The position numbers and the translations under genes were made by a program. Positions 17,841-45,400 of a stretch of 64,000 bases of DNA are shown here, piece by piece (positions within the stretch are counted from its first letter, which is position 1; each line of letters opens with the position of its first letter). The stretch spans positions 10,508,501 through 10,572,500 of the forward strand of contig LR990046.1 of assembly GCA_905147135.1 (NCBI GenBank). Direction: 5' to 3'. Source of the DNA: Blastobasis lacticolella. Its lineage: Eukaryota; Arthropoda; Insecta; Lepidoptera; Blastobasidae. Below the pieces are notes generated by a model. That model was not told the origin of the DNA and did not search any database. It worked only from the letters and a program-made list of their open reading frames with translations.

Positions 17841-19371
17841 CTACAGCGCTCTTTGTACTTGTCTCACGTGTTGACTCTTTGATTCCTTTAAGGCCTGGTC
17901 AAGTTTGTTGGTGATATGTATCAAATTTGTCAAGTCACATTGTAACAAAACATGGTTGATAATATTTTGACAATGACTGGCAGCTTTAGCATCTTGTATA
18001 GACGAATTTATCTTTACAGATGTCAACTGGTTGTTGTCCTTAGTGTTGTCAACTGATGAAACTGCTCCATCCTCTTTACCTTGCCCGAAATTTTTAGGGG
18101 CCATCAATACGAAATCCATGGCGACCATTGGCTTTATTTCTTCTTCACAACCTCTAGATGCAACCTGTAAAATTATTGTTAATCAATACTTTTACATTTT
18201 TGGTATAAATTGATACAAATTTTAGAAATACATACTTGAACTTCAAATCTCCATGTCAAATCTTGATAGGTAGGATCTCTCTGCTGAAGCAAATGCAATG
18301 CGGATGACAATTCAGACTTCTTGGTTATGTATAACTTGAGTAGCACTTCTTGCTGGTCAGAAGAGAATCCAGCAATGGCCAGTGATGACTTGAAATCTGG
18401 GTCGGACAGCTTAACATGACAAAAATATATTTGTATTGTAATCTAGGTAGAAATATTTTTTGCAAATTCTACGTAATATAATACTTACATTATATTTACA
18501 CCCTTCAACAATTAGATATACTAAAGCATGTACTACATTCTGCACAGATGTTAAACTAACATCCAATTTATCTGAAATAAATAGAACTTATAAAGTAACT
18601 CCATCTTGCAGTCACAGAGTACAGAGAATAGTTATTTGACTTACCAGCGGCAATGCTGTATTTTTTGGGATTACAACCATTGTTCAAATAATCAATAGCT
18701 AATTTACAAAAGTCTACCAGTACTGAAAAAGAAAGGCACAGTGATTATGTGATTGTGGTTGTCAAAGTTCAGTTTAATATGATGAAATTTGTCTAAGCTT
18801 AGGATAATTGGCATGTTATTAACATAAATACAATAGCAAGTACAATACACAGTACAGTAGTTAACATAAATACATTACAATACTTTAGTAATTCAATAAT
18901 AATTCTATTACCAGTTGGTTAAATTTGCCAGGTAATTTAAGACTTTTTAAGCAATTATTTAATTGAAAATTTGGGAAATTTTTGAAGTTTGAAGTAATAC
19001 TTTTAAAGACAGACATTGCCCCGAGTTTACGGAGTCAAAATAATAACCACAATAACCTCAAACAATAACAGTTTTAATATAAAAAAATATGTTTTAATTC
19101 GGTTTGGTTAGGTTAGTGTTGTGACAATGCCTGAAGGAGCTCCGTAAACTCGGGTCAATAAATTTCGTTAGACATTACTTTAAAGTTCATGAATTTGGCA
19201 AATTTTCAATGAATAATTGCTTATAAAGCTAGCCGTTTAATTAAACGGCTAATTTAACCATCCGTCTCCGACATTTGAAATGGTTTAATTTAAGTATAAC
19301 AAACCTTGAGTGGAGTGGCGGTTTAAAAGGCTTAGATGCTCCTTTTGTAAATCGCTTAGAAAAATGATCAT
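17841..19371 (-). CDS. COMMD2: COMM domain-containing protein 2 (COMMD2 orthologue), 5 exons
   Basis: I joined five exons on the minus strand: 19371-19305, 18722-18645, 18571-18489, 18409-18236 and 18164-17841. All have GT-AG borders and matching phases, giving 241 residues. The N-terminus (MIIFLSDLQKEHLSLL) and the helical segment DFCKLAIDYLNNGCNPKKY follow vertebrate COMMD2 closely. The C-terminal COMM domain starts near residue 126 with DLTWRFEVQVASRG and ends LDQALKESKSQHVRQVQRAL. COMMD proteins form hetero-oligomers and join the CCC complex, which works with Retriever in endosomal recycling and also influences NF-kB. That role is known for the family and is not visible here. The protein is about 40 residues longer than human COMMD2 because a polar loop inside the COMM domain is expanded. 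The start is the only Met in frame at the conserved N-terminus. The gene is divergent from AP3D1. Confidence 0.9.
18914..19262. mobile_element. MITE in intron 1 of COMMD2
   Basis: Long imperfect inverted repeats: TTGGTTAAATTTGCC at the left against the inverse of GGCTAATTTAACCA at the right. Matching inner blocks are GCAATTATTTAATTGAAAAT and CCCCGAGTTTACGGAG with CTCCGTAAACTCGGG. The right end also holds the perfect 22-bp palindrome TAGCCGTTTAATTAAACGGC plus TA at 19230-19251. Confidence 0.65.
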
Positions 19372-19805: not shown

Positions 19806-22800
19806 ATGGCTTTGAAAAAAGTAAAAGGAAACTTCGAAAGAATGTTTGATAAAAACCTAACGGATTTAGTGCGAGGAATCAGGAATAACAAGGATAACGA
19901 GGTATCTAAGGTGTACATTAGTTTATGTGCTAATTCCTTTTTTAACACAAACGTAATAAATAAGAAACTAATATTAAATACAACTTAACTTCTAGGCGAA
20001 ATACATAGCACAATGTATGGAAGAAATTAAAGTGGAATTACGTCAAGATAATATTGCAGTGAAAGCGAATGCTGTAGCTAAACTGACATACGTAAGTACA
20101 CACATAAACAAGACATGTAAATTGTATGTTTTGTAAGAATGGCGGTACTTTAATACATTTATTTGTTTACAGTTGCAAATGTTAGGATATGATATATCAT
20201 GGGCTATATTCAACATAATTGAAGTTATGAGTTCAAATAAATTTACATACAAGAGAATTGGCTATTTAGCAGCTAGTCAGTCATTTCATGCAGATTCTGA
20301 ACTTCTAATGCTCACCACAAACATGATAAGAAAAGATCTTAATGCTCAAAATCAATATGAGGCTGGATTGGCTCTCAGTGGGCTCAGCTGTTTTATATCG
20401 CATGACTTAGCTAAGGATCTTGCCAATGATATTATGACACTGGTAAGTGGTTTCATATGTTTTTATGTTCCTTGGTAGGTGAAACATGAAAGTTGTAACT
20501 GTTGCAAGGACAGTAGCAACACCGGGTGTATCACCTCTTTAAGCCCTGGGACTCATGGCTGTAGCAGTAAATAGGCAATTGCTAGGCCCCTTTACTGCCA
20601 AAGCCATGAAGTGGAAAGTGTATGAATATGTTTTTTTGCGATGTGATAAATAGATTTGTTGAATGAACCTTGGTATACACATACATCATGACCTAGATTA
20701 TTATTTTAGGTCAGGTCCTAGGATACTTTTTCCCGGTATTGTGTTCCCAATTGTTGAATAAGTAATTGAAGGATTAAACCCGTCACAACCTGGTCACTCA
20801 GTATCGGGTCATGAGAACAATAGATAACAATAGATTTGCGGATGCATACTTGGGATGTGAGAACTTGTGAAATGTATTTTTCTGCAAAACTTTTTCTCTT
20901 AATAGGAGCTAAATAGTGTTGAACAGTAAGAATTTCAAAATTCCCTTTGTCCATAATCAAATTTGAACAACCCAAGAGCTACATACAAATAAATTGTATT
21001 ATAAATTTTAGATGAGTTCTACTAAACCATATTTGAGGATGAAAGCAGTTTTGATGATGTACAAGGTGTTTTTAAGATATCCAGAAGCCCTAAGGCCAGC
21101 ATTTCCAAAGTTAAAGGAAAAATTAGAAGACCCAGATCCTGGTAAGATCAACATTATCAAATAAATAATACAATAGTTCATTTGTTATTAAATATTTATT
21201 GCTAACATTAGCACAGATTATGTACTCTTTTGATAAACTATTTTAGTTGCTTCTCTTCCTGACCTTATTAATTTGATAATTATTTTCATAAACTTTTAAT
21301 ATTATTTGTTAATTTTTGACATGATAACTGAAATTACTTTGTATCTTTAAGTTCAATATTATTTTTATAATATTAAAATTCCGGTTTTGAAACTTACATA
21401 TAAAAAAAATTTAATATCACTTATATAACCCCCTTCATATTTTCAGGTGTACAATCAGCAGCAGTGAATGTAGTCTGTGAACTAGCAAGAAAAAACCCTA
21501 AAAACTACTTATCTCTAGCACCAGTGTTCTTTAAGCTGATGACTACATCCACTAATAACTGGATGCTCATTAAAATAATCAAACTGGTATGTTACCTTCA
21601 ATTAATATTTTTATATGTGATGTAGTATGTTAACTTACTCTTATTCCAGACAATTACTCGAATTCCGGCTATTAGTTCAATATCCTCAGTATTAAATATT
21701 TAAAGTGGTAAAAATTATGTATAAAAATATCATTTATTCTCAATAGTTCAATTAACATTAGGTGACAATCAAATTTAAAACTTTGAATCTGTACAATTAG
21801 ATATTAGAAATAACATATCCTAATGTAGAATATTTTATAATGTATATGTGAATTGTACTTTAATTTTACTAAAATAAATTCTTCGCAGTTTGGTTTAATG
21901 ACACAATATGAACCAGATATTGGAAGAAAAATTACTCAAAGCCTCATAGATCTAATTTGCAGGTACCACTAATGAATATGAAAAGAGTTTACCAGCTGCT
22001 AGATTCATTCACCACACCTTGCCACAGTCAGTCTTATATTTTAGTGATATACACTTTTATCAATACAGGTATACTTACAAAATATGGTACAACCATTTCT
22101 ACATTTTGAAGCAATGGTTCAATAACATTACAAACATAATCCGAAAGTGAAAATACTAGGATCAAATGCAACCAGATTTAGTATCATGTAGAAATGGTTG
22201 AAATTACCAATTACGCATGCCAGTGGAGTATACAACATAAAATGATCTCACAAAGAACACAATAATTGGCACACACAATCACATTATATTATGTTTGCTG
22301 CTGATAAATATCTGGTTACAAAAATACATCTGTCTGGTTGTTTAGTGATGCCGTAGCCAGGTGTAGGCCTGCTGTGTACAGGAGAACATGTATCGCGAAC
22401 ATGATGACTATTTAGGAATGAATCAAACTAATGACTGTATACAGAAGCCTCATATATCATCTAGTGATTGGTTGCTCACATAAGCTAGTCTTATGTAGTG
22501 TTGTGTTTGTTGCAGTTTGGTGCCTTAACCCCATTAGAGCCTCGACTTGGCAAGAAACTGATAGAACCATTAACTAATTTAATTCATAGGTGAGTCAGTT
22601 TTTGTCAATCCACACTTGGTACTCAGTCAGAGTAGAGTGTAACCATATTTGGACTCTATGGGGTGAAAGGAAGATAGTAATCATATGCTGTAAGGCCTAT
22701 AAAGCATAGATAAACTTAACATTGTGAATATTATGGTCTGTGTGGTTCAAATTGGCTTGCTTGTCCTGCTTTTTCTTTGTTTATTTTTAGACTCTCTGTT

Positions 22801-25800
22801 TTACCCAAAAAATTATTCATGTTAGTTTCAGTATTGTTACTGCTCTCATTGTTGCATGTGTGATCTGCTTGTCTAAATTATTTACGTTCACTAATACATA
22901 TGAGTTAAATACCTTTCTATTATTTATTACTAAAATAAGTCTGTCAAATCAAGCCTGTGACATATTCATCTGGGTAAATCTATTCCAATTAAAGCATAAT
23001 TCAATATGAATTTGTTTTGAGTCTGTTATTACTATAACCATGTTTGTTACAGTTGTCTGAATGCTATACATGGTTATTAATAATGAAACTTCATTATCTA
23101 CTTATTATCACTCTCTGCATGTGACTATGTGTAGAAGTAAGATCAGTCAAACTTCACACTCACAATTCCTTTTACCACTTGTCATAATTGTTTCATAGAA
23201 TGTACAGTTGACATGTTATGAAAAGTGTATTTCGACATCCCTTTCTCAACTTCTAAGAGCTCAGTCCTACTAAAATCTTTACACAACATAATGTATCAGT
23301 GGTGGAATGGAAACCTGTAAACTAAAGTGCATGATAGAACCTCGTACAATTTTAACTGCACTATGTAACCTTTGCCTGTCGCGCGCAGTACGTCAGCGAT
23401 GTCGCTACTGTACGAGTGCATCAACACGGTGATCGCGGTGCTGATCAGCATCAGCAGCGGGATGCCGGGACACGCCGCCTCCGTGCAGCTCTGCGTGCAG
23501 AAGCTAAGGATACTGATCGAGGACAGCGACCAAAACCGTGAGCATTGATAGGGAAACTGAGGCACTTGTGCTTTTTTTATTTAAGTAATATGGCAGACAA
23601 ACAGTCATGCGGGCCACCTGATGGAAAGTGGTCACCGCCGCCTATGGACAACATCAGCAACACCATTGCGTGCTATCATTGCGTCGCCCACCTCTAAGGA
23701 GACATCTAATATACCTCTTGAACGATCCCATGTCATAGTCCAAAGGAAACAATGTGGCTAGCTTATTCCACATCCGAATCGTATCAGCGAGAAACGTTGT
23801 TCGAATCTTCGCTTGACGAAACGCAGCGTGATGCGGTGGTTTGAGCATAATAAGAGCGATTCCTTTGCCAAGTATAGTTACCGATACCACCGCTCTTTGT
23901 GTCTCTCGCCGACGCATATCGTATTGCCGCGTTTGTCTCTCGATTCGATGAGTCGAGCACGAGACGACGATTCGCGTCTTACGTATATCTCGAAGTTATC
24001 AATGCTGCTAACTACGCGTGAAATTGATAATTCAAGGCTTGAACTTCAAACTCAGAAGCGAGGTAGGGCATAGCAGGGTATCTCGTTCGAATTGGAGCCA
24101 GCCGACTGGGGAAGTACCTCCACCTTACAGAATATCGCAGCTAAATAATACTCTCTTAAATAGTATTGTGTTTCTGCTGGTGAGTAAGGTTTCCAGTGCT
24201 CCATGGGGTGGGGATTTGGCTTTGGCAGTGGAGTGGCATTTGCCTTTTTGCGGCCAGAGCAACGTGTTATAGAGGTGGGCTACGCATTGGCGATACTCTT
24301 GGTGTTGCTAATGTCTATAGGCAGTGGTGACCACTATCCATCAGGTGGCCCGCTTGCCTGTTTGCCTACCGTATGACATAAAAAAGCTGTTCTATACAAA
24401 ATCGCACCGCGGTGGGCAGGGCTTAACCGTTGATTATACTCTGTATAGTACCATACTACAGTATTAGTGCGCCCGGTGCCAAATCACCTGTTGCAATTAA
24501 TTCCCACAATAATTGAAGGCAGTGCTCTTTTTGACGAACGAAAGTAATACATCTAACGTCCAACCCTCTTTAAGTATCAAGAGGTTTATTAGAGGTCTCC
24601 TTAATGGCGGGCAACGCATTGGTAACGCCTCTATTGTTGCTGATGTCCATAGCCGACGGTGACCACTTTCCATCAGGTGGCCCGAATGCCTGTTGCCCGC
24701 CGTATTACATAAAAAGTAATAAATGGACTTGCCAAACCAAGTTGTGGCACCTACATAACTATAGCTCTAACCGGCCTACCAAACCCACTAACCAAAGTCC
24801 ACGTTTCCAGTGAAGTACCTCGGGCTACTGGCGATGTCGCGCATCCTCAAGTCGCACCCGAAGTCTGTGCAGGCGCACAAGGACCTAGTGCTGGCCTGCC
24901 TCGATGACAAGGACGAGTCGATACGGCTGCGGGCGTTGGGTTTGCTCTATGGCATGGTGAGTGGTTGCAGGTTTTAGATGATCATTCATATGTAACGTTA
25001 TGTCTTTTGGAGGTAGTCAGAGACTACATTGTTATTGCTACGAACCTGATAAACCTCTCGCTTTAGTGGAATTTAATGTATTTGGTTAAAACAGCCGCAG
25101 GGAACGAGCGAGCGAGTTTGTTTTTATATGAAACTGCATGTTTAGACTAAATATTACAAACTTTATCGCTGAGCGTAAAGGTTAGGTACCTTAGAAACTC
25201 TAGACCTCCTCCATCCATGCTCTAGATATGCATAATTAGATTGCGCCCAGAAAGTTCCCACATGGAGATCCAAGTTCTTCAAAAAAGGCAGAGTCGATTT
25301 TTAGACCACCAGTGTATTATTTAACAAAAATAAATGCACAAATGTGTGTACAAAAATAATAACCACCACGATTCCGTCCATCAGGTCTCCAAAAAGAACC
25401 TAATGGAGATAGTGAAGAAGCTAATGGTGCACATGGAGCGCGCCGAAGGCACGCTGTACCGCGACGAGTTGCTCACGCGCATGGTCGAGATTTGCGCGCA
25501 GAATAACTATCAGCACGTCGTCGACTTCGAGTGGTACGTCACGGTGCTTGTCGAGCTCACCGAGATGGAGACGAGTGCTAAGCATGGTAAGATATTTTGT
25601 ATTATGACAGCTACTAATGTCGGAAAGCACCTGGCAGAGTCTACCCTAAAGATACTTGAATATTTCCGAAATTGCTGAACGGTTTTTTTGTTATGTTTAG
25701 TTATGAACAGACACATTTTAGAATAAATAAAACCGCATCAAATTCGGTTCTTCCGTTCGGTCGCTACGATGCGAAACACATATCAAACTTATAACAGTTG

Positions 25801-28800
25801 TGTTTTGGCATCGGTGGATTAATAAGAACTATTCATGTGTGAGTAAAATATATATTGTATAACTATTGTGTAGTATATAGATATGTTGTAATAACTGCAC
25901 TTTATTGCGACTACACAGAAAATACGCCATACATACTACCTGATTTTTTTGCCAATAGGACTTGACAATAACGTCACTAGTATCAGCGGCATGTTAGTTC
26001 CTTGTAACGCCATATTCATTACTTTCCTACATGTCGCCGATAGGGAAACTAGTGAAACTACTGATGAAAAGATACTGACACTAGTACTTATTCGACTGAT
26101 GTTAGTCCAGTCCAGTCCTATTACTATTTTAACAGGATAGTATGCGATGTTTCTCGTAACAATACGAACAAATAAAGAACACGATGCTGAACATCCAATT
26201 TCGTCGACTGTACAATATTTTTAGAACTAGAAGAAATCCCCCTGCGGGATAAGTCCGCCTTTGTAATTCCTACGTAACATTTTTTACACCACTAAGGCGC
26301 AAACAAGCTAACGACCTGCCTGATAGTAAGCAGTCACTGCAGTCTCAGGGCGTTTGCAATACCAAGGGCATCACCCCGCGTTGCCGACCCCGTAAAAACC
26401 TTTAACATGTATATTTTCTTTGTACAATAAAGATTACATCAATCAATTCCCCTGCGGCATAAGTCCGCCTTTGTACATTCCTCTGTAGCATTTATATGAT
26501 TACAATCACGATTACATCAATCAATCAATCCTCCCCAGGCATAATCCTAGCGGGCCAACTGGTGGAGGTGGGCGCGCGTGTGGCCGCGGTGCGGGCGTTC
26601 GCGGCGCGCGAGTGCGGGGCGCTGTGCGCGCGCGCCGCCGCCGCCCCGCCCGGGCCCGCCTCCCGGGAGGTGCTCTACGCCGCCGGATACGTGCTCGCCG
26701 AGTATTGCGGGTACGTATGCTCCAACAGACACTGTGAAATGGTCCTGTACAGCTGAACACTGCAACGAGTGGGGCTGCGTTGTCCAGCATGGCATACACA
26801 CACTCAAGCATCTACCCGTGTTACCTCTCAGGTTGGCTGGATTTCTTATAGAGATAAGCTCGCCAATGCAAACGATATTTAAAGTAAAACTGTATAATTT
26901 TTTTTGGTATAATAGAGAATACATATAAGTGTACTCGTGACATAGCTAGCACCACAACAAAGCCATTATTTCCTACACTCAATTCTAATATGAAAGACGG
27001 CTTACATAAGTGTACTCGCGATATAGCTAGCGCCGCGAGAGAGTCCTTATTTCTTTGACTCAATACTAAGATAAAAGAGCTAGCATGATTTGTGTCGCGC
27101 ATTTCCCTTCCAAATATTTTTCTTAAGTTGTTAAAAGGATTTGAAAACACCCCTTTTTCAGTTATTTATTTATTTAAAACTTTATGCACATTACAGTTAT
27201 CGTCAAAGTTGCCTCTTTAACTTTTTGTGTAATTTTATCAAGAGACTACTTACCACAATAAAATGATACGCACCAGTTAGCTGAATCTTGTCTGATTATA
27301 CCTACAAAGTTGCATTGTAATCAGATTTGCCATTTCCAAGAAATTGAAAAAATTGCTTGTATGAAAGCCAGCTTCCGTCATTTTCGCCATACAAAACCCT
27401 AATTTCATAGATAAGGACCTATCAGTCCTTGTATCCATGCCGTAAACAAACCCTATATGCTCCCACCCCCCAGCGAGGAGCAAGTGATGCGCGAAGCGGT
27501 CCCCTCGCTGCTGTCCGTGGCGGGCGCGATGGCGGGCGGCGGCGCGATGCGCGCGCGCGCCGTGTGCGTCCACGCCGCGTTCAAGCTGGCCGCGCGCCTG
27601 CTGCGGATCTACGAGCTTAGGGGGGACAAGGAGAATGCTGTACAGGTGATATACACACTCACACACTCGACGATTCTACATACAATCGACTGCCGCGGTC
27701 CTGATACAACTCTTTTGCCTTCTCCTTACTTCGTATTCCTGCTCTTTCGATTTACGCCGAAATAAGCGATACACAAATCGACAAAGTCAAGCGCAGGGGG
27801 GACAAGTAGCTTGCTGTACAGGTGATATACACACTCGCACACACACGCGTACACTTACACACACACGCACATATTGTTTCATTCCACAGGGGTAAGAGAC
27901 AATCGAGTGCCATGGTCCTGATACAACTTTTTTGCCGTTTCTCTGTCTCCTTACTTTGTGTTCCTGCTTCGATTTACGTTGCAGTAAGCGAGACACAAAG
28001 CGACAAAGTCAAGCTCAGGAGACAAGGAGCCTGCTATATAGGGTATACACACACTTTCTGCCTCTACATCATCATCTTGGCGTTAATGTCCCGGTTATGC
28101 TCGACAAAATTGCTGAAAATATTTTCCGGATTTGACAAGAACTATTAATAGTATTTATTTTGGGTCGGAAGCAGTTTGCATTCGTTACTTATTGTCAACT
28201 CGGTAACAATTTAATGGTGTTACACTTCAGCGGTTCGCTCTGACAGAACTATGCAATACGCATATATTACATACCATCATGCCTCATTCCCGAAGGAAGA
28301 CAGAGACTCCAAAGTTGTTTCTATAATCAGTTTCGTAGTAAAATAAAGGAAAGTAGGATAACTCCGAACAAAGTATTTCGCGCGACTTTGACATTGAATT
28401 GTGTTAAGATTTAATGTCGTGCATGCGTAGGTACAGAGCGCGCGGCGCCGTGCACACATACAAGCCGCGCAATGCACCTTATACGGAGTTACCCTACATT
28501 TCTTTTCTTACTATGACCAGTGTTGGTAGCTCTAATAACCCCATTATTCTTCAGCTAGTGGACGAGACCCTCATCGGTCTGCGAGACCTGCTCTGCAGCG
28601 AAGACATGGAGGTGCAGGAACGGGCGCACAATGCTCACGCGTTGCTCTCTCTCGTACTGCGGCGGCTGCGGCCCGATGGCGAGACCGATAGTACAATGCT
28701 ACCGGACGAGGCGCTTATCGATCATCATGATAGGTAAATTGTATATTCCATTTACATCCGGCGACCTGGAAAAGATCGCAGGTACCAGCTGGATGCGGAA

Positions 28801-31800
28801 GGCATAGGACCGGCCTTTGTGGAGATCTCTGGGGGAGGCCTATGCCCAGCAGTGGGCGTCTTTCGGCTGATATGATGATGTGATACTCCATTTTTAATTC
28901 CGTGGAATTTGGACGTTTCTTGATTTTAATAGCCTCTTTAGGAAATGTAAGAATGTCAAGTGAAATAAATGTATCGGTTAATGATTATTATATTTGATTA
29001 TGAAAATTCTAATTTTCATGATAGTTTCTTGATTTACCCTAGTTTACCCTAGCTAATTTACCAGATGTCCTTCCATACCTCTACCAAAAAAAACAGCGAT
29101 TCTGCAAGAAACCTCCTTGCTCGCAACAATGAACTGATGATGAACTTATTCATTCATTTCTTCCCCTTATTCATCATTCGTCCTTCATCAGTTTTTTAGG
29201 ACGTTCACCATAGTTTTCAAAAATTTTATGTACGACTATATGCATAAAGATTCTTCCTTCCATCAACAATTTTTTTGAAATATTTCCAGCATCGGAAACG
29301 GCGACGGCTTAGAGCTCGAGGCGGAAGGGGCCGAGGGCGTGAACGGCGAGCGCGCGGACTTCAGCGGCGGACTCATCGAGGAGCTGGTGGATCTCTTCGA
29401 CGGGGAACTGAAGCCTGTGGCGCCCAAGGCGCAGAAGAAAGTGCCCATGCCGCCCGAGTGAGTGTTCGCTTTGAGTGTTGTGCTTTGATAATAACGGTGT
29501 CTAATTGAGTCTGGTAGTGGAGGGTTTTGGGGGTTTCCTGAAATAAAATAGCATCAACTTCCTTGGTGGTTTGAAATTAAGGGAGTAAAGTAGTCCATGA
29601 GTATTCGGAAATCGGAAAGAACAATGTTTATCGATTATGGCTTATGTAAATTAAGGCAAAGCCATTTTATTATTAAAAAATAATTTCCGAAGTCTTTCCT
29701 CTGTACTACTACATAGGGCTCTTCAAAAGGCATGTCTACGGATACCTTAAGGCTGGCACCGCATCCGCTCCCCTTATCGTGTGGATGGTGGATCGTCCTG
29801 ACCATCCCAAGGCAATAGTTTATTTATTTATTTTGGTAACACTATATGAAACTTGAAGTGTCTGTCCACTTAAATAGGATCCACCGTCTTATATATTTAT
29901 GTTTAAGCAACAACTGCGTTGCGTCAGTGACAAACCTTGTCAGACGCAAGCAGCTTTGCACCTTTTACACCAAAGTAGACCAGAAAGTTGCCATAAACCC
30001 ACTTCTCTCTTAGTGTTGAAGATAGCTATTGCTCACGCGATCCAAATGCCCATAGGTTGGATCTGGACCGGTGGCTGTCCCGGGACCGCTGGTCCTCAGA
30101 CAGCTCAAGCTCGGAGGAGGAACCTACAAGCGCAGTGTTCGCACCACCCGCGCCGGACGCCAACGACGCCCGGCCACTTACGAAACTCACGCCTGAGGAA
30201 CTGCAGATGGTAAGCGAATATTGTTTTTTTTACAATTTACACAGCGCCATCTAGCCCCAAAGTAAGCAAAGCTTGTTATGTGAACGGGGGTGCAACCATG
30301 TGCTGTGCGCGCGTTAATTTATGTCTATGAGGCACGACCGCTTAAATAATTCAAGTAGCAATTATTCTCTGAGAGTCTGTTCTATGAGAGCCATAGATAC
30401 AGACAGGGAGGTGATAGAATAAAGAGAACGAAACGACAGGCTGCCGCGCGCTTGGCGATGTGGGACGCGCCGTTCGCTCACAGAATACTTCTGCATTTGC
30501 CCGATCGGTTACACGGCTCTGGCAACGCTAGACCCGCAAGAGGCTAACTTCGTTTAGGTAATAAATATTACAAGACTTTGTTACAGAGGCGGCTTTCGTC
30601 AACATCAATCTATGCCTTCCTGATAAATTATGAAAATAAACCATTATCATCATCCGAGGGGTATGTATGTATGTATGTATGTAATCTCTTTATTGCATCA
30701 ATTTATAACATTACAGGAAATAAAAATACAGTTTATAATGCAAGGGCGAGCTTATCCCACAGCGGGATTTCTTCCAGCTAACCTTTGATAAGCCGAGAAG
30801 ACCTTTGATGAGCGGTGAAGGCAATTAAGAGTAAAAACACAGGGGTCAGTCGCGGCTTCTGCCAGGGTTCGCTTTCCGACACATTTTCCTCCATTTCTCC
30901 CGGTCTTGGGCAACCTTGCGTCGTAAGCCATTGGCTCTCGCATCAGACTCTATTACAAATTATTATAAAAAATGTGTAATCCAATCACAGTTGCGCGAAG
31001 CCCGCCGAGCGGAGCAAGCGCACAATCCACACTACCTGAAGGACGACTCGCCGCGCTCCTACCAGCAAGACGACACGCCCGTCGCTGAGATAGCTTTGGA
31101 GGTGCCGTTGCAAGTCTACAGTGAGTATCGCAACCGTAGTTTTTGCCTTAGCTATCCTTACGTCCTTTGCCGCTACAGCCACACAGTATTTGGTGCATCT
31201 TTAGCCAAAATCTGTTTTCTAAAAGATCATTCATTAGCTGTCTTTTATGCTCAAAGGACTCGTCGTTTAGTTACTCTTACTTCCAGTTTCTAAAACGCTT
31301 GTCGAAATTAAACCAGACAGTGCTCCAGTCTCTACAGCGGTGCCAAATTGACTATCGATATATCGAAGCACTGAAGTGTTTGTACGAAAACGCCACGATG
31401 TCAGTTCGTCTCCAAGAGAAGACCACAGAACCTATTCAGCTGCAGCGAGGTGTTAGACAAGGTGATGTCATATCACCGAAGTTGTTCACCGCTGCGCTGG
31501 CGGATATATTTAGGCTTCTGGACTGGGACGGACTTGGCATCAATATTAACGGCGAGTACCTCACTCACCTCAGATTTGCTGACGATATCGTAGTCATGTG
31601 CTGAAACCCTGGAAGACTTGAGCAAAATGACCGATGCTCGATGACCTCTGTAGTGCCTCTCAACAAGTAGGTCTTAAAATGAACATGGACAAGACGAAAA
31701 TTATGTCGAACGTCAATGTTGTGCCTACTCCAGTGACAGTTGGAGGCACTCCATTTGAAGTTGTTGACGACTATACATACCTAGGACAAATAGTCCAGCT

Positions 31801-34800
31801 AGGTAGGTCCAATTTCGAGAAAGAGGGCAATCTACGAATCCAACTCGGTTGGGCAGCGTTCGGGAAGCTACGGTACATATTTTCGTCCCAATTGCCGCAG
31901 TGTCCCAAGACGAAGGTCTTCGACCAATGTATGTTGCCAGTGATGACTTACGGAACTGAAACGTGGCCGCTCACTGTGGGCCTTAAAAGAAAGCTCACTG
32001 TTACCCAAAGGGCAATGGGAAGAGCAATGCTCGGAGTTTCATTGCGCGATCGAATCAGAAATGAGAAGATTCGCAAGCAAACCAAGACCACCGACATAGC
32101 TCTAAGGATTGCCAGACTGAAGTGGTAGTGGGCAGGGCATATAGCTCGAAGAACAGATGGCCGAAGGGGCAGTAAAGTTCTCGAGTGGCGACCACGTACC
32201 GGTAGACGCAGCGTGGGTAGGCCTCCTACAAGGTGGACCGACCACCTTGTAAGGATCGCAGGTACCAGCTGGATGCGGAAAGCACAGGACCGGCCTTTGT
32301 GGAGATCCTGATATGATGATGATGACACCTATACACCTTTTACGCTGTGTGCTACCAATTTCGGGTGGATAACTCATTTTCATAAGATATTTTATTTTCA
32401 TTAATCCTGTATTTAATTTTCTATTTCAGCTAAGAGATCTGACAAGTACTTAATTTCGAAGGAGAACTCGAAGAAGGCGAAAAAAGAGAAGAGAACGTCA
32501 AAGAAGCGCAAGAGCAAAAAAGACAGGCATTCCACCGAATCTGAGAGTGAAGGTAACAATTTAGTGATTCTATATGATTCTAATGAGATGATGATGAAAA
32601 AAGCAACAATTACAAATGGTTTTGTTATTCCTCTTTATTTTTTAAGAATATTTATTATGATTAATGTCATTATTTCATTTTACCGGTTATAGAACAATGT
32701 GAACGATGTGTATGGGGTGGGGTATGCAGTGACGTCAATTGATTACCGCCAACCTATAGAAGATGCTATATCAGATTTTACTCGCGCCCATGTCGGTTCC
32801 ATACCGCAGAAAACTGCTGGGCCAGTAGTATATTTTACTTGCGTTTTGCGTAAGCCCTAGGAAACCAGGTATCAGATAGGCCTAAGAAGCGATGGGTTCA
32901 TTGCCGAGTCCAATGCGAGAGTCAACAGCTTACGAACGCGAGAATGCAGATAAATTATTTATGTCAAACCAACAGCTACAGGAATTTGGATAAACTCAGT
33001 TCCTCGACCGTAGTAGTAGGATTGACCTCGACCCTCTTTGTACGTAATATTTTTCCCTCATGAACGACTACAGTACATATCCCACTGACATACAGGTCTA
33101 CTCGTGCAATGTTATTGGCTAAATGGCATTTTGTGGCGACACTATCGAACACTGTCTCTTTATGATACAGGATTTATTCCTAGTTTAGGAGGCAGGGCTG
33201 TAAATTTTTGCCCTACCATTGTCACTTTGTAAAGCTATATTATCAAAATGTTATATTCGTGTCAATAAATTCATTTTTTTTTTCCCCAGACGAGGTGTCC
33301 CGGCGGCCGGCCGTGGCGGAGGGCGGGGAGCTGCCCGAGGGCGCGGCGCCGTCGGACGAGGACGCGCCCGCCGCCGGCGACGACCCGCACCGCGCGCTCG
33401 ACCTCGACCTCGACCTGTGAGTACTGCCCGGGCCGGGGGGCGCAGGTTGACCTACGTCGTCGAGTACGAGAGTTCTACTTTTTAGTGATTGTAGACGTTC
33501 AGGAGACACAAAAGGATGGTCTACCAGTGCACGACCTGGCGCAAGACATTCGGGAGACACGAAACGTTGGTATGCCCGTGCACGACCTGGCGCAATTTTT
33601 TTTATTAATATTTTGTTTATTTAATACTTTATTCATCATCACAGCTCATAACAGTCCACTGCAGGACTTAGGGCCTCTCCCATGAGAGGAAGGTCATTGC
33701 TATAATCTCCACGCTTGGCAGGCAGGTTGGTGGTCGCAATGTTATAAATATAACAATGGAAAACGCTGCTTCCCATTTTCCAGCATACGAAGACTTACAC
33801 CTTTTGCTTCTAAAATATTATTCGCCTTGTACGACTCCCACGAATGTAAGGGGTTGGTGCTATTCTACTCTGCTGAACATCAGCTAACACTTTATTGCAC
33901 ACAATAAAGTACATTGAGAAATATCATACATCTAAACAACACAACATTCACTACTGATTTCTAAAAATAAATTTTAGGGACCCAAACTTCAACTTTTCGT
34001 AGCGATTATACTTACGTATCCGCTTTGTGTGGGTTCTATAAGTAAAAGAAACCGGGGTGACACACATCCTCTTGGTTTTGGTTTTTAGCTACATTAAAGT
34101 CACTTTTCTTTTTGTCTCATAAACGTCTACTATCACTACAAAGTGGAGTTTCTCTTGTACTCGATGACGTAAGATAACATACGGCGCCCTCACTGTCCAT
34201 AAGACTTATAAAGCCTTCCCGGTTTCAGTTGGCCATCCCGGCTTTCCACGTGGCTACTTATAATCTTTGGAGTCACAAGTTACCAAAAACATCGTCGATG
34301 TTTACAAAAAAACGAGAATATTTAGTAATCTCATTTCTGTTATTTTATTATATAGAGTCGCACTATTATATGGGCCGATCGGTGTTTTTCTCGTAATCAC
34401 ACATTTGCTCAAATATTTTTAATTGTACATAACATATTAAAATTATTACTCGATATCGAAAAAAGAGTATGTTTAGATGCCAGTAAGTCCCCGAAATTGA
34501 ATAAAAAATATTTTCTCAAGTTTTTATGAGGGTTTCAAAGTACCCCTTTTCATTTGTCGTCAGTTTTGTCTCTTTAACCAGATGTAACTTTATGAAAAGG
34601 ATAGTTATCAAAATGAAATGGTATGCACTAGTTAGCTTAATGTTGTCTGATTATACCTACAAAGTTACATAGTAATCGGATTTGCCATTTCTAAGAAATT
34701 TAAAAATTTGCTTGTATGATTGAAAATGTTTGAATTCCATTTCATAGGTAAAGACCTAATTCATTATTTTTATTCCCTAAACAGACCGCTCCGTGAGGAC

Positions 34801-35484
34801 GAGCTGTTGTCATCCAGGATCAACCAGTACCCGTCTCCGGAAACCGGTCTGCTCAACCAGAAAACCGCCGAGCCAAAGAAGAAGGCCAAGTCGCGGGCTT
34901 CTACAGACAAGTCACTGAAAAAGAAGAAGGAGAAGAAATCCAAGCACAAGAAGGAGTTAAACCTCATCATACCAGAGACTGGTAACGACGTAGCGAGTGA
35001 CTTAATTATAACCGACGACTCGAATGTGGAGAAAATGAAAGAAAGCGGCGCGGGCGACGAGCCCCGAGTGAACAGCACCAAGACTGAAAAACATAAGAAA
35101 TCCAAGAAAGACTCCAACGACAAAGACTCCAAGAAAAAGAAGTCCAAAAAAGGTAATGTGTAATGGTTTTTATTTCTACTGTTTTTATGTAGTAGCCAGG
35201 CTAAATGCGATTTCATTCCATGTCGTATTCAGCAATAAGATAGATAGCGTAACGATTATTATCAGACAGTTTATGAGTAGTAGCTTGACCTTGCTTTTTT
35301 CCTTTGAAAGGGAATTATATCTGACCCTATACAATATGACCCTATACAAGATAGCGACTTTTGTTTACCCTTTTAACGCTATGTCAAATAAATGGTATGG
35401 TTTCCTATTCCAGATAAATATGAAACAAAGCTGGGATATGAAGAAGCCCTGGGCATCTCGACGCCCAGCAAAGAAGTCGTATAG
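19806..35484 (+). CDS. AP3D1: AP-3 complex subunit delta (garnet/AP3D1 orthologue), 19 exons with an alternative exon 6
   Basis: Exons: 19806-19901, 19996-20091, 20173-20442, 21012-21141, 21447-21586, exon 6 (21889-21962 or 22516-22589), 23389-23537, 24811-24956, 25385-25586, 26539-26710, 27474-27645, 28555-28733, 29290-29457, 30056-30209, 30991-31120, 32430-32552, 33290-33416, 34785-35152, 35414-35484. Every junction is GT-AG and keeps phase, giving 988 residues. Residues 1-580 form the adaptin HEAT-repeat trunk, nearly identical to vertebrates in places (LQMLGYDISW, NYLSLAP, LRILIEDSDQN). An acidic/Ser-rich hinge and Lys-rich stretches follow (residues 680-965). Delta is one of the two large chains of AP-3, which sorts cargo to lysosomes and lysosome-related organelles; garnet mutants lose eye pigment in flies. 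Exons 7-17 are far GC-richer than exons 1-6. The frame ends at TAG 35482 after STPSKEVV, with no recognisable ear domain. A possible donor at 35479 could lead to exons I did not find. Confidence 0.93.
21889..21962 (+). CDS. AP3D1: AP3D1 alternative exon 6a (diverged copy)
   Basis: This is a 74-nt open segment preceded by TTCTTCGCAG and followed by the donor GTACCA. It encodes FGLMTQYEPDIGRKITQSLI plus DLIC, then a split Ser codon. It enters in phase 0 and leaves in phase 2, exactly like exon 6b 553 nt downstream. About 10 of 24 residues match 6b, including F, G, T, EP, G, K and LI at the same positions. It encodes roughly residues 245-269 of the trunk. Length, phase and spacing of conserved residues indicate a duplicated exon that has stayed coding. 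Confidence 0.8.
22516..22589 (+). CDS. AP3D1: AP3D1 alternative exon 6b (conserved copy)
   Basis: This is a 74-nt exon preceded by TTTGTTGCAG and followed by the strong donor GTGAGT. It encodes FGALTPLEPRLGKK and then LIEPLTNLIH, which is the sequence I remember for vertebrate AP-3 delta at this position. It is therefore the ancestral form of exon 6. Confidence 0.93.
23565..24150 (-). pseudogene. LINE ORF2 C-terminal fragment in AP3D1 intron 7
   Basis: On the minus strand the frame from 23917 gives FRQAKIRTTFLADTIRMWNK then FKRYIRCLLRGGRR, the usual end of an insect LINE ORF2, followed by the GGTGGCCCGC tail near 23610. It is inserted antisense to AP3D1. Confidence 0.65.
24180..24725 (+). 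mobile_element. Two LINE 3'-tail fragments in AP3D1 intron 7
   Basis: Both 24290-24385 and 24595-24720 carry GTGACCACT and CCATCAGGTGGCCCG followed by GCC-rich and ATAAAAA ends in sense orientation. The stretch between them is featureless. Confidence 0.6.
26216..26475. mobile_element. LINE tail interrupted by another LINE tail, AP3D1 intron 9
   Basis: CCCCTGCGG...ATAAGTCCGCCTTTGTA occurs twice (about 26238-26266 and 26449-26476), in each case as a LINE 3' tail. Between them lies a minus-sense tail at 26280-26405 matching 17355-17490. It ends within about 60 nt of the exon 10 acceptor. Confidence 0.55.
26926..27427. repeat. Tandem and dispersed repeats ending next to the exon 11 acceptor
   Basis: 26926-27000 and 27007-27080 are a tandem pair (ATAAGTGTACTCG, ATAGCTAGC). 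27100-27427 is closely related to 34490-34768: both contain TCTGATTATACCTACAAAGT and GATTTGCCATTTC. Each copy ends shortly before an AP3D1 exon. Confidence 0.65.
27621..28070 (+). repeat. Tandem repeat that duplicates the end of AP3D1 exon 11 with its donor
   Basis: The unit starts GGGGGACAAG, contains GCTGTACAGGTGATATACAC (exon end plus donor) and the downstream GTCCTGATACAACT block. It recurs from 27796 and, in part, from about 28018. An intact decoy donor stands at 27822. Simple CA repeats lie at about 27832-27870. Confidence 0.75.
28745..28882 (+). pseudogene. RTE LINE 3' end in AP3D1 intron 12
   Basis: ATCGCAGGTACCAGCTGGAT and ATAGGACCGGCCTTTGTGG are nearly identical to 32253-32307. In translation the stretch reads as the last residues of RTE ORF2 (IAGTSWMRKA, AYAQQWASFG) followed by GATGATG. 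Confidence 0.7.
30660..30955. mobile_element. GTAT microsatellite and RTE tail in AP3D1 intron 14
   Basis: 30661-30682 is a GTAT repeat. 30752-30950 on the minus strand reads as an RTE ORF2 end (DARANGLRRKVAQDREKWRK, MCRKANPG). Confidence 0.6.
31288..32325 (+). pseudogene. RTE-type LINE reverse transcriptase fragment in AP3D1 intron 15
   Basis: The sequence encodes reverse transcriptase blocks GVRQGDVISPKLF and LRFADDIVVM, containing the catalytic FADD, then a frameshift near 31603. Downstream comes GLKMNMDKTKIMSN, DYTYLGQIV and the C-terminal region to LRIARLKW, then a tail ending ATGATGATGATG at about 32323. The endonuclease and 5' half are missing. It is in sense orientation with the host gene. 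Confidence 0.85.
33490..34768. repeat. Repeat-filled AP3D1 intron 17
   Basis: 33500-33596 is a two-unit tandem repeat of about 51 bp (GTGCACGACCTGGCGCAA at the end of each unit). 33635-33740 is the common GTCCACTGCAGGACTTAGGG repeat. 33980-34250 has an inverted and shuffled relative at 43080-43400. 34490-34768 is the relative of 27100-27427. Confidence 0.55.
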
Positions 35485-40139: not shown

Positions 40140-40975
40140 CAATAACTGCGTTAGTAGATAGAACATCCGCTGCTGAACATAGGCCCCCACGGCTTCCCGC
40201 CGATCGACTCTGGGTCTCCTGCATTTATCGGCTCCTCACGACCTTAACGAGATCATTTGTCCGTCTCGTGGGGTGACGTCCAACGCCGCGATTGCCAGTA
40301 CGTGGTCGCCACACGAGAATCTTTCGCTCCATCGGACAACGGTTCTGCGAGCTACTTACATGGCCAGCCCATTGCCACTTCAGTTTTGGGACACTGGAAC
40401 CTGTGTCGGAAACCTTAGTTCTGCTACGGATATGTTCATGTCTGATATCACGTAGACAACTCTCCATCGCACGCTGACTGACCCTGAACCATCTTATGAA
40501 GGCCTTCGTGAGGCACCACATCTCTGATCCGTAACTTACACTGGCAACACACGTTAATCATTGGAATACTGTGACTTTTGAACGACAAAGATCTTACGCA
40601 ATATTCCGAAAGCTGCCCAACCGAGTTGCATGCGTCTATTGATTCTTTCTCGAAGTTGGATCTACGTTTGGTCAAACTTCGACAAGAGCCCCCGACCATT
40701 ACTAGGACGAGTGTGACGTGCACATTAGACTTTAGGTTCGTCTTGTCTATGTTTATTTTAAGACCCACCTCATTCCGCCATGACTACAATATCGCCAGCA
40801 AACCGAATGTAAGAACGGTCCTCGCCATTGACATTGATGCGGGATGCATTTCTAGAGCTTGAAATAACGTTTCGGAGAGATGACATCTTGTCTCACGCCT
40901 CGCTGCAGTTGGATCGGTCCCGTCATTGCTCTTGGACAGATCGTCATTAGTGTTCGGTGTACGAGACACATTTTG
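40140..40975 (-). pseudogene. Degenerate RTE reverse transcriptase fragment
   Basis: On the minus strand broken frames give INVNGED, then FAGDIVVM where the catalytic FADD has become FAGD. GLKINIDKTNLKSN, GQLSEYCVRSL and VWRPRTGNRGVGRHPTRRT follow. Several frameshifts and stops are present. It is related to the copy at 31288-32325 in opposite orientation. Confidence 0.8.
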
Positions 40976-41545
40976 TTCAATTCTGCAAATCGATGTACAA
41001 GCTCAAATGGCTAGCTAGCACACATGTACTAGATGTCAAGACAATCATTTTGACCCACAATAATGCCGCCATTTTTCTTTTATATGGAAACAAAATTGTT
41101 TTCTCTGAATCCTATGGAGTGTGGTATCAAATGAAACGGTCTTTCCGAGCTAATTCCTAAAATAAACCACTATTTTTTATACCCCACTCGACAGGTTTCT
41201 CGATCTAATACACTAGTGCCAAATGGCTAGCTTGTTCATCAGTTTGCAGTTTTTTTAGATGTAGGCGTTTTAGTATAGGCTTCTCAACACTTCGACGTAC
41301 CGATAGTCAACGTGGCACCTCTGGAGAGACTGAAACACGGTCCGTCTCCATTAAGCATTTGAGCCAAACGCACTTGTGCTGCGCTGCGCGACGCCTCATC
41401 ATTAAAAAAATATGGATACTGAAATCAACTTACCTCGGGAGAATTATTCTCGAAATCCCTCTCGTTGGATGTTTGGCGACCATAGCGAATGATACTAATG
41501 ATGGAACTACTTAGTAAAACTACAATCGAATCAGATCTAATTAAG
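40976..41545. other. Intergenic, nothing recognisable
   Basis: AT-rich sequence between the RTE fragment and the SUCLA2 3' UTR. The frame at 40957-41160 has no known motif. Confidence 0.4.
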
Positions 41546-42435: not shown

Positions 42436-45400
42436 CTACTTCTCGAGGAACTGTTTTGGTATATCGAATTTAACCTCGACGCCGGCCTTCTTGGCGAGGG
42501 CCACGATCTCCGAGAGCTGGACCACGAGCTGGGCGGCCTCGTCCAGGTCGTCGCGAGGCACGATGCGAAGCCCCGACTCCGCAACCAGCTTTCGAGCTTC
42601 GTTCACCTTCGTGCCCTGGATACAAAGTTCATGGTATAAAAATATTTCATCGTCTGCCAGAAAACATAATCGTAGCGAACAAGGCAATAAATTCTAAAAG
42701 GAACTCAAAAATTGATTGCTTGACAAATCGTTTTTTGACTGGACGAATTTTGGTTGTACAAAAATACTGGAATTAATGTTTTAATCATTTCTGCTTGACG
42801 TTGTACTAAAATGTGACATTGTACCTATGTTATTTTTAATGTTGACATTATTAAAATTGATTAATATGACATTATTATATAATTGGACATTAATTTTATT
42901 ATTTTGTTATAACTATTATTTAATTTAAATTATGGGACATCAGTATTGTATTATTTGTACGAGCTTCAATCATTTAGAGAGCACTAAAAATTGTTTTATC
43001 ATCGTCTAATATATGGTACGACCAGAATGGACAGACTGTTAGGATTTCTGTGGGGAATACGGAGGTTGCCTGACACTGAATAAAAAAAACCTATAGACTG
43101 AGGGCGCCGCAATAAAAAAAAGAAACCGACTTTAAAGTGCCTGTGAAACTTCCAGGAGGATGTGAGGCCGACCGTTTCTTTTTCATTTCTAGAACCCACA
43201 CAAGAGGATATGAAAGTACTATCGCTACGAAAAGTTTGGGTCACTAAAATACTTTATTTTTGTGTCAGGTTGTGCACGGGCCGACCAACGTTTTATGGGT
43301 TTTCCTATACCTCTACTATCGCTACAAAGTGAAAATCTCTGGTACTTGATGATTAGGATAACCTAAGGCGCCCTCATAATCTATAAGCTTATCTTACTGA
43401 AAATAGCTTTTAGAGATTACTGGAATTCCAGTTTAAAAAATTTGTTTACATTGTGTACGTCACTAGCGGTCATCGCCTCCCGTCTTAAACAATTTTTATC
43501 TTGCTAGTTAATAATTTTTTTTTTAATTGGACTTGTCAGGCATTTGACCGCCATCTCACCCGGCAGCAAGCGACGAGGCGGCCGATGATGGGATGTATGC
43601 CTGTCTAGAAAAAGCCTATTCACTCTGGCCTAGTATTATAATGTCATGGAATTAAAATCGAAACTCGAGTAGCAAATTGCTACGAGTTTTAGGTCGTACA
43701 ACCACAAAGTTACAGACCGCGGCACGTATCTTGAGCGGTGACCGTTATTGCGCAGAAGTCAAAAATAAGGTGTCGTGGGGGAGGAAAACCGCGGGGCGGC
43801 CGCAGCGACATACGTAAGCGCTGATTGGCTATCATTAGCTCCGTGCGCCGATTGGATTGGTGCGCGACTGTGCCCATGCACAGGTATTCCCTCCGAGTTT
43901 CAACCGCTCAACTTACGTGCCGCTAGGTATATCTGCTGTAAAACCGCTACTCAAAAAGAAAGCTGCTGTAAAATCATAAGTTCCAATAAAGACACGACCG
44001 TTGGCGCGCACTCACCTGCAAGCGCACGATGACCGGGATCTGGATGTTGAGGTTCTTAGCGGCGGTGATGATGCCCTCCGCGATGACGTCACACCTCATG
44101 ATGCCACCGAAGATGTTAACCATGATGGCAGACACGTTCGGGTCAGACAGGATGATTTTGAAGGCTTCCTGCGGACGTCATGCGATGACGATTCGTCAAT
44201 AAACACCCATGTTCCGCCACAATTGTAAAATAAACATGTGTCGCTAACTAGGCTAAGCGAGAACATAATATCAGTTGGTCACGATATATTCGTGTCGCAG
44301 CCAACTCTAATGTTAAAGGGAATGGCTACAGACTTTTTTAAATTGCAGTTCTGGAATTCTGTCTGCTAGATAACTCTTACGTTTCACACACAAATTGGAA
44401 AACGTAAAAGCTACACCTATTTTTAGGAAACTATTTATGAAAAAGGGTTCAAATACACCTAGAAGGCTCTCTTGAAATTCAAGAGTTACGAGGCCACTTA
44501 ATCTCCGAATAATTAACCTCCAATCTTTGTCTAGATTAGACTATTGACTCAAACTCTCGTTTCTTTAAATTGTAGACTGTGGTTTGTCCGTGTGGAAGTG
44601 GTGGGTGATGGAAATGAACTTGTAGTAGAACTGCAAATGCGATCGCGGTCGCAGCTCTCGTCCTTGGGTTGGGGTCTTTCAGTGCTATAGATTCGTAAAA
44701 AGAATTCTGAGCAACAGAAAGACCCCTGAGGATAGACATAGTCTTTTATTCCCCTCCATTTGCAAGTCGCAACATACAAGTACTATAGTCGAGTTTCTGT
44801 TTTATAAATAAGGCCAGCGTTCATTTGACGTGACAAGCGCCGCGCTACACGCCCATAGGCTACGAGGGTTTTCGCAATCCCAAAACCCACGAGATGGGCT
44901 TACTGCGACGTAAGATCTGTGGTCAAAATAAAACCGTGTCATTGGACGAAAACGCTGACTCTTCGTGCATAAAAGAGGTGTTTACCGAGACGGCCTGAGC
45001 AGTGGCGCCGCCGCCGACGTCGAGGAAGTTGGCCGGGTCGCCGCCGTACAGCTTGATGATGTCCATGGTGGCCATGGCCAGCCCGGCGCCGTTCACCATG
45101 CACCCGATGTTGCCTGACGGACATCGTACCATACATACATACCATACACACAAAACATCTAGCCTTTTTCCCGTACGGGTAGACAGAGGCAGTACCTTAC
45201 ATACCAGTACATTATAAAGAACTTCGAGTATCGACTTTCATCAATTAAAATCGATTGTTGAATCAATTTAGTCGCTTACGTTCTTATCGTACATAGTGTA
45301 TGAAATAATAGTTCTAATCTTTTCTTCTATTATTGGCACGTGGCAATATTACTGTGCTAGTTGAGTATCACTACTCAACTCACACTCGACTGATTAACGA

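Follow-up and report, generated by a model that had tools for sequence, protein, structure and literature searches.

An apparently old, probably mutually exclusive exon pair in the AP-3 delta (garnet) gene of Blastobasis lacticolella

The AP-3 delta (garnet) gene of the lepidopteran Blastobasis lacticolella carries two diverged versions of its sixth exon. These very probably constitute an old mutually exclusive pair that several insect orders have in common, probably together with crustaceans, and that results in two AP-3 complexes. AP-3 handles cargo for lysosomes, pigment granules and synaptic vesicles, and garnet is one of the classic genes for eye colour in Drosophila. The pair was first noticed in a model-generated annotation of a 64,000-nucleotide stretch of genomic DNA (taken from contig LR990046.1 and here called the window; positions are counted from its first letter), which read the two exons as a probable mutually exclusive pair. 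This reading is supported by the presence of the same alternative peptide in an isoform of the butterfly Aricia agestis, and by a homologous swap that is annotated in flies and wasps.

Two versions of exon 6 and their reading frame

The gene was modelled as 18 exons on the forward strand (19806–35152), with a frame free of stops through 961 codons whichever exon 6 is used; the model stops short of the 3′ end. The best PDB sequence match of the window protein is AP-3 delta-1 (E 1.9e-179), compared with E 2.6e-28 for AP-1 gamma-1, and the Pfam domains Adaptin_N and AP3D1 are found on the A. agestis orthologue (P0003). By sequence similarity, the gene is a lepidopteran AP-3 delta whose adaptin N-terminal solenoid is closest to AP3D1. 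A genome search places AP-3 delta at one locus in the 577-Mb assembly. A protein search of the same assembly returned the three pieces of this gene and, on contig 8, a single weak match (E 0.002, 41% identity, four internal stops). The idea that the alternative exon came from a paralogue or a retrocopy was rejected because these searches found no second locus in the assembly.

Several other elements share the window. Upstream of AP-3 delta, exons of a gene for a COMM-domain protein occupy 17841–18744 on the reverse strand, where Pfam COMM_domain and COMM_HN score above their cut-offs in pieces joined by eye. Two fragments whose motifs we take to be reverse-transcriptase-like lie at 31152–32128 (forward strand), within the AP-3 delta intron between model exons 15 and 16, and at 40225–41010 (reverse strand). 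Open reading frame pieces at 42436–45237 (reverse strand) presumably resemble the beta subunit of succinate-CoA ligase.

Exon 5 (21447–21586), common to both forms, ends in phase 0, and exon 7 (23389–23537), likewise common, accepts phase 2. Between them lie exon 6a (21889–21962), the alternative form, and exon 6b (22516–22589), the canonical form, separated by an intron of 553 nucleotides (21963–22515). Both are 74 nucleotides long, enter in phase 0 and leave in phase 2, and both are flanked by AG and GT sites, which agrees in every respect with the first-pass annotation. Specifically, exon 6a is bounded by ttcgcag/TTTGGT and TTGCAG/gtaccact (donor CAG/gtacca) and encodes FGLMTQYEPDIGRKITQSLIDLIC followed by a split Ser, and exon 6b is bounded by gttgcag/TTTGGT and TCATAG/gtgagtca (donor TAG/gtgagt) and encodes FGALTPLEPRLGKKLIEPLTNLIH, also followed by a split Ser. 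On reading the sequence, the 6a donor is off consensus at positions +4 to +6 and the 6a acceptor is pyrimidine-poor.

Adjoining internal exons that match in length and phase, each with AG and GT sites, are one hallmark of a mutually exclusive pair; another is that using both exons or neither gives no productive mRNA. The frame yields precisely this outcome. With 6a alone or 6b alone, the 961 modelled codons contain no stop. Including both places the first stop at codon 273, within 6b and ahead of 12 exon junctions, and leaving out both places it at codon 326, in exon 8 and ahead of ten exon junctions. It had been claimed that both departures shift the frame, and the early stops bear this out. 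Because many exon junctions follow each early stop, mRNAs of either kind would be expected to be destroyed. We infer that each productive mRNA of B. lacticolella would take one of the two exons, with the reading frame removing mistakes in splicing. Exon 6b, unchanged in human, would be the default form, and exon 6a, with its weaker-looking splice sites, would be a regulated form whose use splicing factors probably increase in some cells.

The pair resembles those of Dscam and muscle myosin heavy chain in that its exons are internal, adjacent and homologous and match in length and phase, and differs from them in having two exons only. It also differs from mutually exclusive exons in general in the kind of protein encoded, which is a vesicle coat subunit and not a receptor, channel or motor, and in that a test of low power found no competing RNA structures. 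In that test, no 13-mer of the intron between 6a and 6b pairs at 12 or more of 13 positions with both flanking introns, and none does in 15 shuffles, such that this candidate exclusion device was set aside with little power behind the decision. Steric or U2/U12 exclusion is unlikely given the 553-nucleotide spacing and the GT–AG sites at both exons. The region 21500–23600 has no Rfam match at the gathering score. The same intron holds a stable hairpin (22085–22209, forward strand) with a perfect stem of 15 base pairs that extends to 20 pairs. Its z score is -4.75, one copy was found in the genome, and its stem is the longest perfect inverted repeat (15, compared with a maximum of 12 in 60 shuffles). 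This hairpin is one among several AT-rich inverted repeats that were noticed.

Constraint on exon 6a and its counterparts in other arthropods

Exons 6a and 6b are identical at 39 of 74 nucleotides (35 differ) and at 10 of 24 residues (14 differ), and the two peptides have a BLOSUM62 score of 52. When 6b is allowed to decay neutrally until it is equally distant, the mean score is 15 ± 11. Stop-free products arise in 30% of 20,000 such runs, and products that combine freedom from stops with at least the observed similarity arise in 4 of 20,000. The simulation starts from 6b and considers the coding letters apart from the splice sites, which are also kept in 6a. As judged from these comparisons, the exons are homologous and their differences appear to respect the fold. 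The absence of a stop from 6a, noted in the first-pass annotation, is confirmed.

Counted with its Ser, the 6b segment matches residues 245–269 of human AP3D1 at 25 of 25 positions, just as had been noted for vertebrates, and we know of no vertebrate AP3D1 counterpart of 6a. A term search of the main text of a human catalogue (PMC5740500) returns none of AP3D1, AP-3 or adaptor. The 6a peptide is identical at 24 of 24 residues in the annotated A. agestis isoform X2 (P0003). Over residues 438–961, the window protein is 63% identical to that of A. agestis (312/495) and 67% identical to that of the nymphalid Nymphalis io (345/512). Residues 1–244 are 99% identical between the window and A. agestis proteins as well, and hence the match in A. 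agestis shows 6a to be constrained like the rest of the trunk, at no special rate.

To survey the exon 6 segment more broadly, proteins were searched with the 6a isoform, with scoring over residues 230–284 (best 120 of 2078 significant proteins), and with a fly alternative isoform (P0030, residues 236–280; best 120 of 898). The segment was extracted from all 153 distinct proteins in the two lists, and orders were assigned by species names. Canonical or near-canonical segments are carried by 112/153 and alternative-type segments by 41/153 (Diptera 29, Hymenoptera 9, and one each from Lepidoptera, Stomatopoda and Acari), counts that are not frequencies since the lists were picked by similarity and limited in length. 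The singletons are A. agestis X2, which is the only lepidopteran 6a-type protein among the matches listed, the mantis shrimp Oratosquilla and the mite Dermatophagoides. A psyllid protein (P0005, Diaphorina citri) that was counted as canonical carries, in addition, a displaced alternative-type segment at about residues 435–458, far downstream of its canonical one, which probably reflects a faulty gene model or assembly. A third search, aimed at shorter proteins that carry 6a, gave one candidate and nothing significant. Looking for the 6a peptide in other insects had been proposed at the outset, and when carried out as a protein search it recovers the complete peptide in A. agestis and related segments in Diptera and Hymenoptera.

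Fifteen same-species isoform pairs were taken from the database proteins. Two D. melanogaster pairs, one residue apart in length, were left out of the position-by-position comparison. The 13 pairs of equal length come from eight Drosophila species, Haematobia, Lucilia, two Vespa and Polistes, and in every one of them the two proteins differ at just 12 or 14 positions, none of which lies outside exon 6, so that in 13/13 pairs each annotated isoform has one exon 6. Thus, the annotated AP-3 delta or garnet isoforms (M9PHJ5_DROME; NCBI X1/X2 of Drosophila, Vespa, Polistes, Lucilia and Haematobia; Aricia X2) vary at the same protein position and length as 6a and 6b, by exchange of a single 24-residue segment, with the remainder unchanged in the 13 pairs of equal length. 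The likeness has a limit: the fly alternative segment matches 6a at 12 of 24 residues and the wasp segment at 13 of 24, and in these insects the forms were compared as proteins.

The first-pass annotation knew of no description of the pair for AP-3 delta. This stands for the literature covered, in which we found no published description, but not for the databases, where the alternative isoform is already present in UniProt (M9PHJ5_DROME) and NCBI for Drosophila and others. No recognisable description of the exon 6 pair emerged from the portions of the literature covered, which included term searches in the available text of PMC3923563, PMC3303723, PMC5740500, PMC3228551, PMC13178560, PMC13322080, PMC7954323 and PMC9741552; garnet may be in table S4 of PMC9741552 or in Hatje & Kollmar 2013. 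In kind, the pair is nothing out of the ordinary for mutually exclusive exons, and the databases already contain its isoforms, those of D. melanogaster included.

Two other explanations of exon 6a deserve consideration. The exon could be a tandem copy of exon 6 that is decaying or goes unused and is open by chance, as its weaker-looking splice sites might suggest. A single other lepidopteran protein with 6a appears among the matches listed, and for B. lacticolella the case is made from genomic DNA. An unused copy would have to match the similarity that neutral simulation equals in so few runs, share its entire peptide with A. agestis and have annotated counterparts in other orders by coincidence, and we consider it highly improbable. 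Exon 6a could instead serve as a poison exon, used together with 6b to lower AP-3 delta through a frame-shifted mRNA, and the stop that this combination creates in 6b, with 12 junctions beyond it, would fit such a role. However, a poison exon needs no open, fold-preserving peptide, whereas 6a leaves the frame intact when used by itself and encodes a constrained peptide, and the two forms in relatives are annotated as alternatives. There is accordingly very little to recommend this explanation over mutually exclusive use.

Age and origin of the pair

The alternative segments of different lineages share many residues that differ from the canonical segment. Six alternative lineages have 51 shared derived residues over 15 pairs, compared with 11.7 ± 3.7 (maximum 28) when each changed residue is redrawn independently in 5000 runs. 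With the mite removed, 42 are shared compared with 7.5 expected, or with 13.6 under a much stricter exchange model, and for Lepidoptera, Hymenoptera and Diptera alone the values are 15 observed and 2.7 to 4.9 expected. Because this sharing far exceeds what independent change gives, the pair is probably ancient.

The main rival to common origin is convergence under shared fold constraint, wherein the exon pairs of the different orders arose by independent duplications and acquired the same residues since few changes fit the helix. Exons 6a and 6b would still be mutually exclusive but young. The segments are just 24 residues long, which leaves some room for this explanation, and the signal is not uniform. 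The mite alone shares no more derived residues than expected (P 0.18), the sharing is weak when Lepidoptera are compared with the stomatopod and mite alone (P 0.0085, rising to 0.09 under the stricter model), and, at 15 of 24 residues, the segments of the stomatopod and the psyllid match the canonical one about as closely as they match several alternative ones. The excess of shared residues stands against convergence, both across the six lineages and among the three insect orders alone, and we judge it unlikely, albeit less so than the two explanations weighed above. On the sequence comparisons, a single origin of the pair is well supported within insects, probable for insects and crustaceans together and possible for arthropods as a whole.

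The exchanged helix face and its meaning

In AlphaFold models of low confidence, exon 6 runs from the last part of one solenoid helix through a turn into the helix that follows. This second helix is present in both models, at residues 253–267 in the 6a form (P0003) and 253–269 in the canonical form (P0144). Mean pLDDT is 64 and 61, respectively, and is lower around exon 6, with ten-residue means over 241–270 of 71, 61 and 47 for the first model and 69, 60 and 44 for the second. Fold searches with the models place AP-3 delta and other adaptins on top. Along residues 254–268, the mostly changed positions (257, 260, 261, 264, 265 and 268) tend to one side of the helix and the little-changed positions (255, 256, 259, 262, 263, 266 and 267) tend to the opposite side, with 258 as an exception. 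The helical moment of change is above that of shuffles (P 0.004). We therefore favour a model in which the fold is kept and one face of one helix is exchanged. Such an exchange would be in line with the trend reported for mutually exclusive exons in general, whose changes keep the fold and alter the surface (PMC7954323).

In the mammalian AP-3 coat, the delta residues listed as contacting ARF1, mu3 and beta3 are 77, 110 and 111; 157, 159, 163 and 187; 313, 314 and 316; and 342, 371, 378, 379 and 386 (PMC13178560). Three of these 15 human residues differ in the window protein (H157 is S, R187 is K and K386 is R) and 12 are kept. None of the interface residues given there falls inside 245–269, so that overlap with these delta interfaces assigns the segment no function. 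With all of them outside the segment, the switched face may be a contact or stability element beyond those interfaces. If this model is correct, the two AP-3 complexes would have the same delta solenoid and differ in one helix face (about residues 253–268), most likely serving, in certain cells, to tune a contact that lies within the AP-3 core or that is made with a neighbour in the lattice or with a partner.

The interest of the pair lies in its apparent age and in the coat that it alters. If it is an old, constrained switch in the delta trunk, it would point to a contact site outside the interfaces described for the mammalian coat (PMC13178560). Insects probably build two kinds of AP-3 coat. 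A bolder proposal, which we advance tentatively and with rather less than even confidence, is that two AP-3 coats have existed in arthropods since before the split of insects, crustaceans and chelicerates, that these differ through one delta helix face acting as an unmapped regulatory contact, and that AP-3 sorting is switched by splicing. If true, sorting by AP-3 to lysosomes, pigment granules and synaptic vesicles would be under the control of a splicing switch in arthropods.
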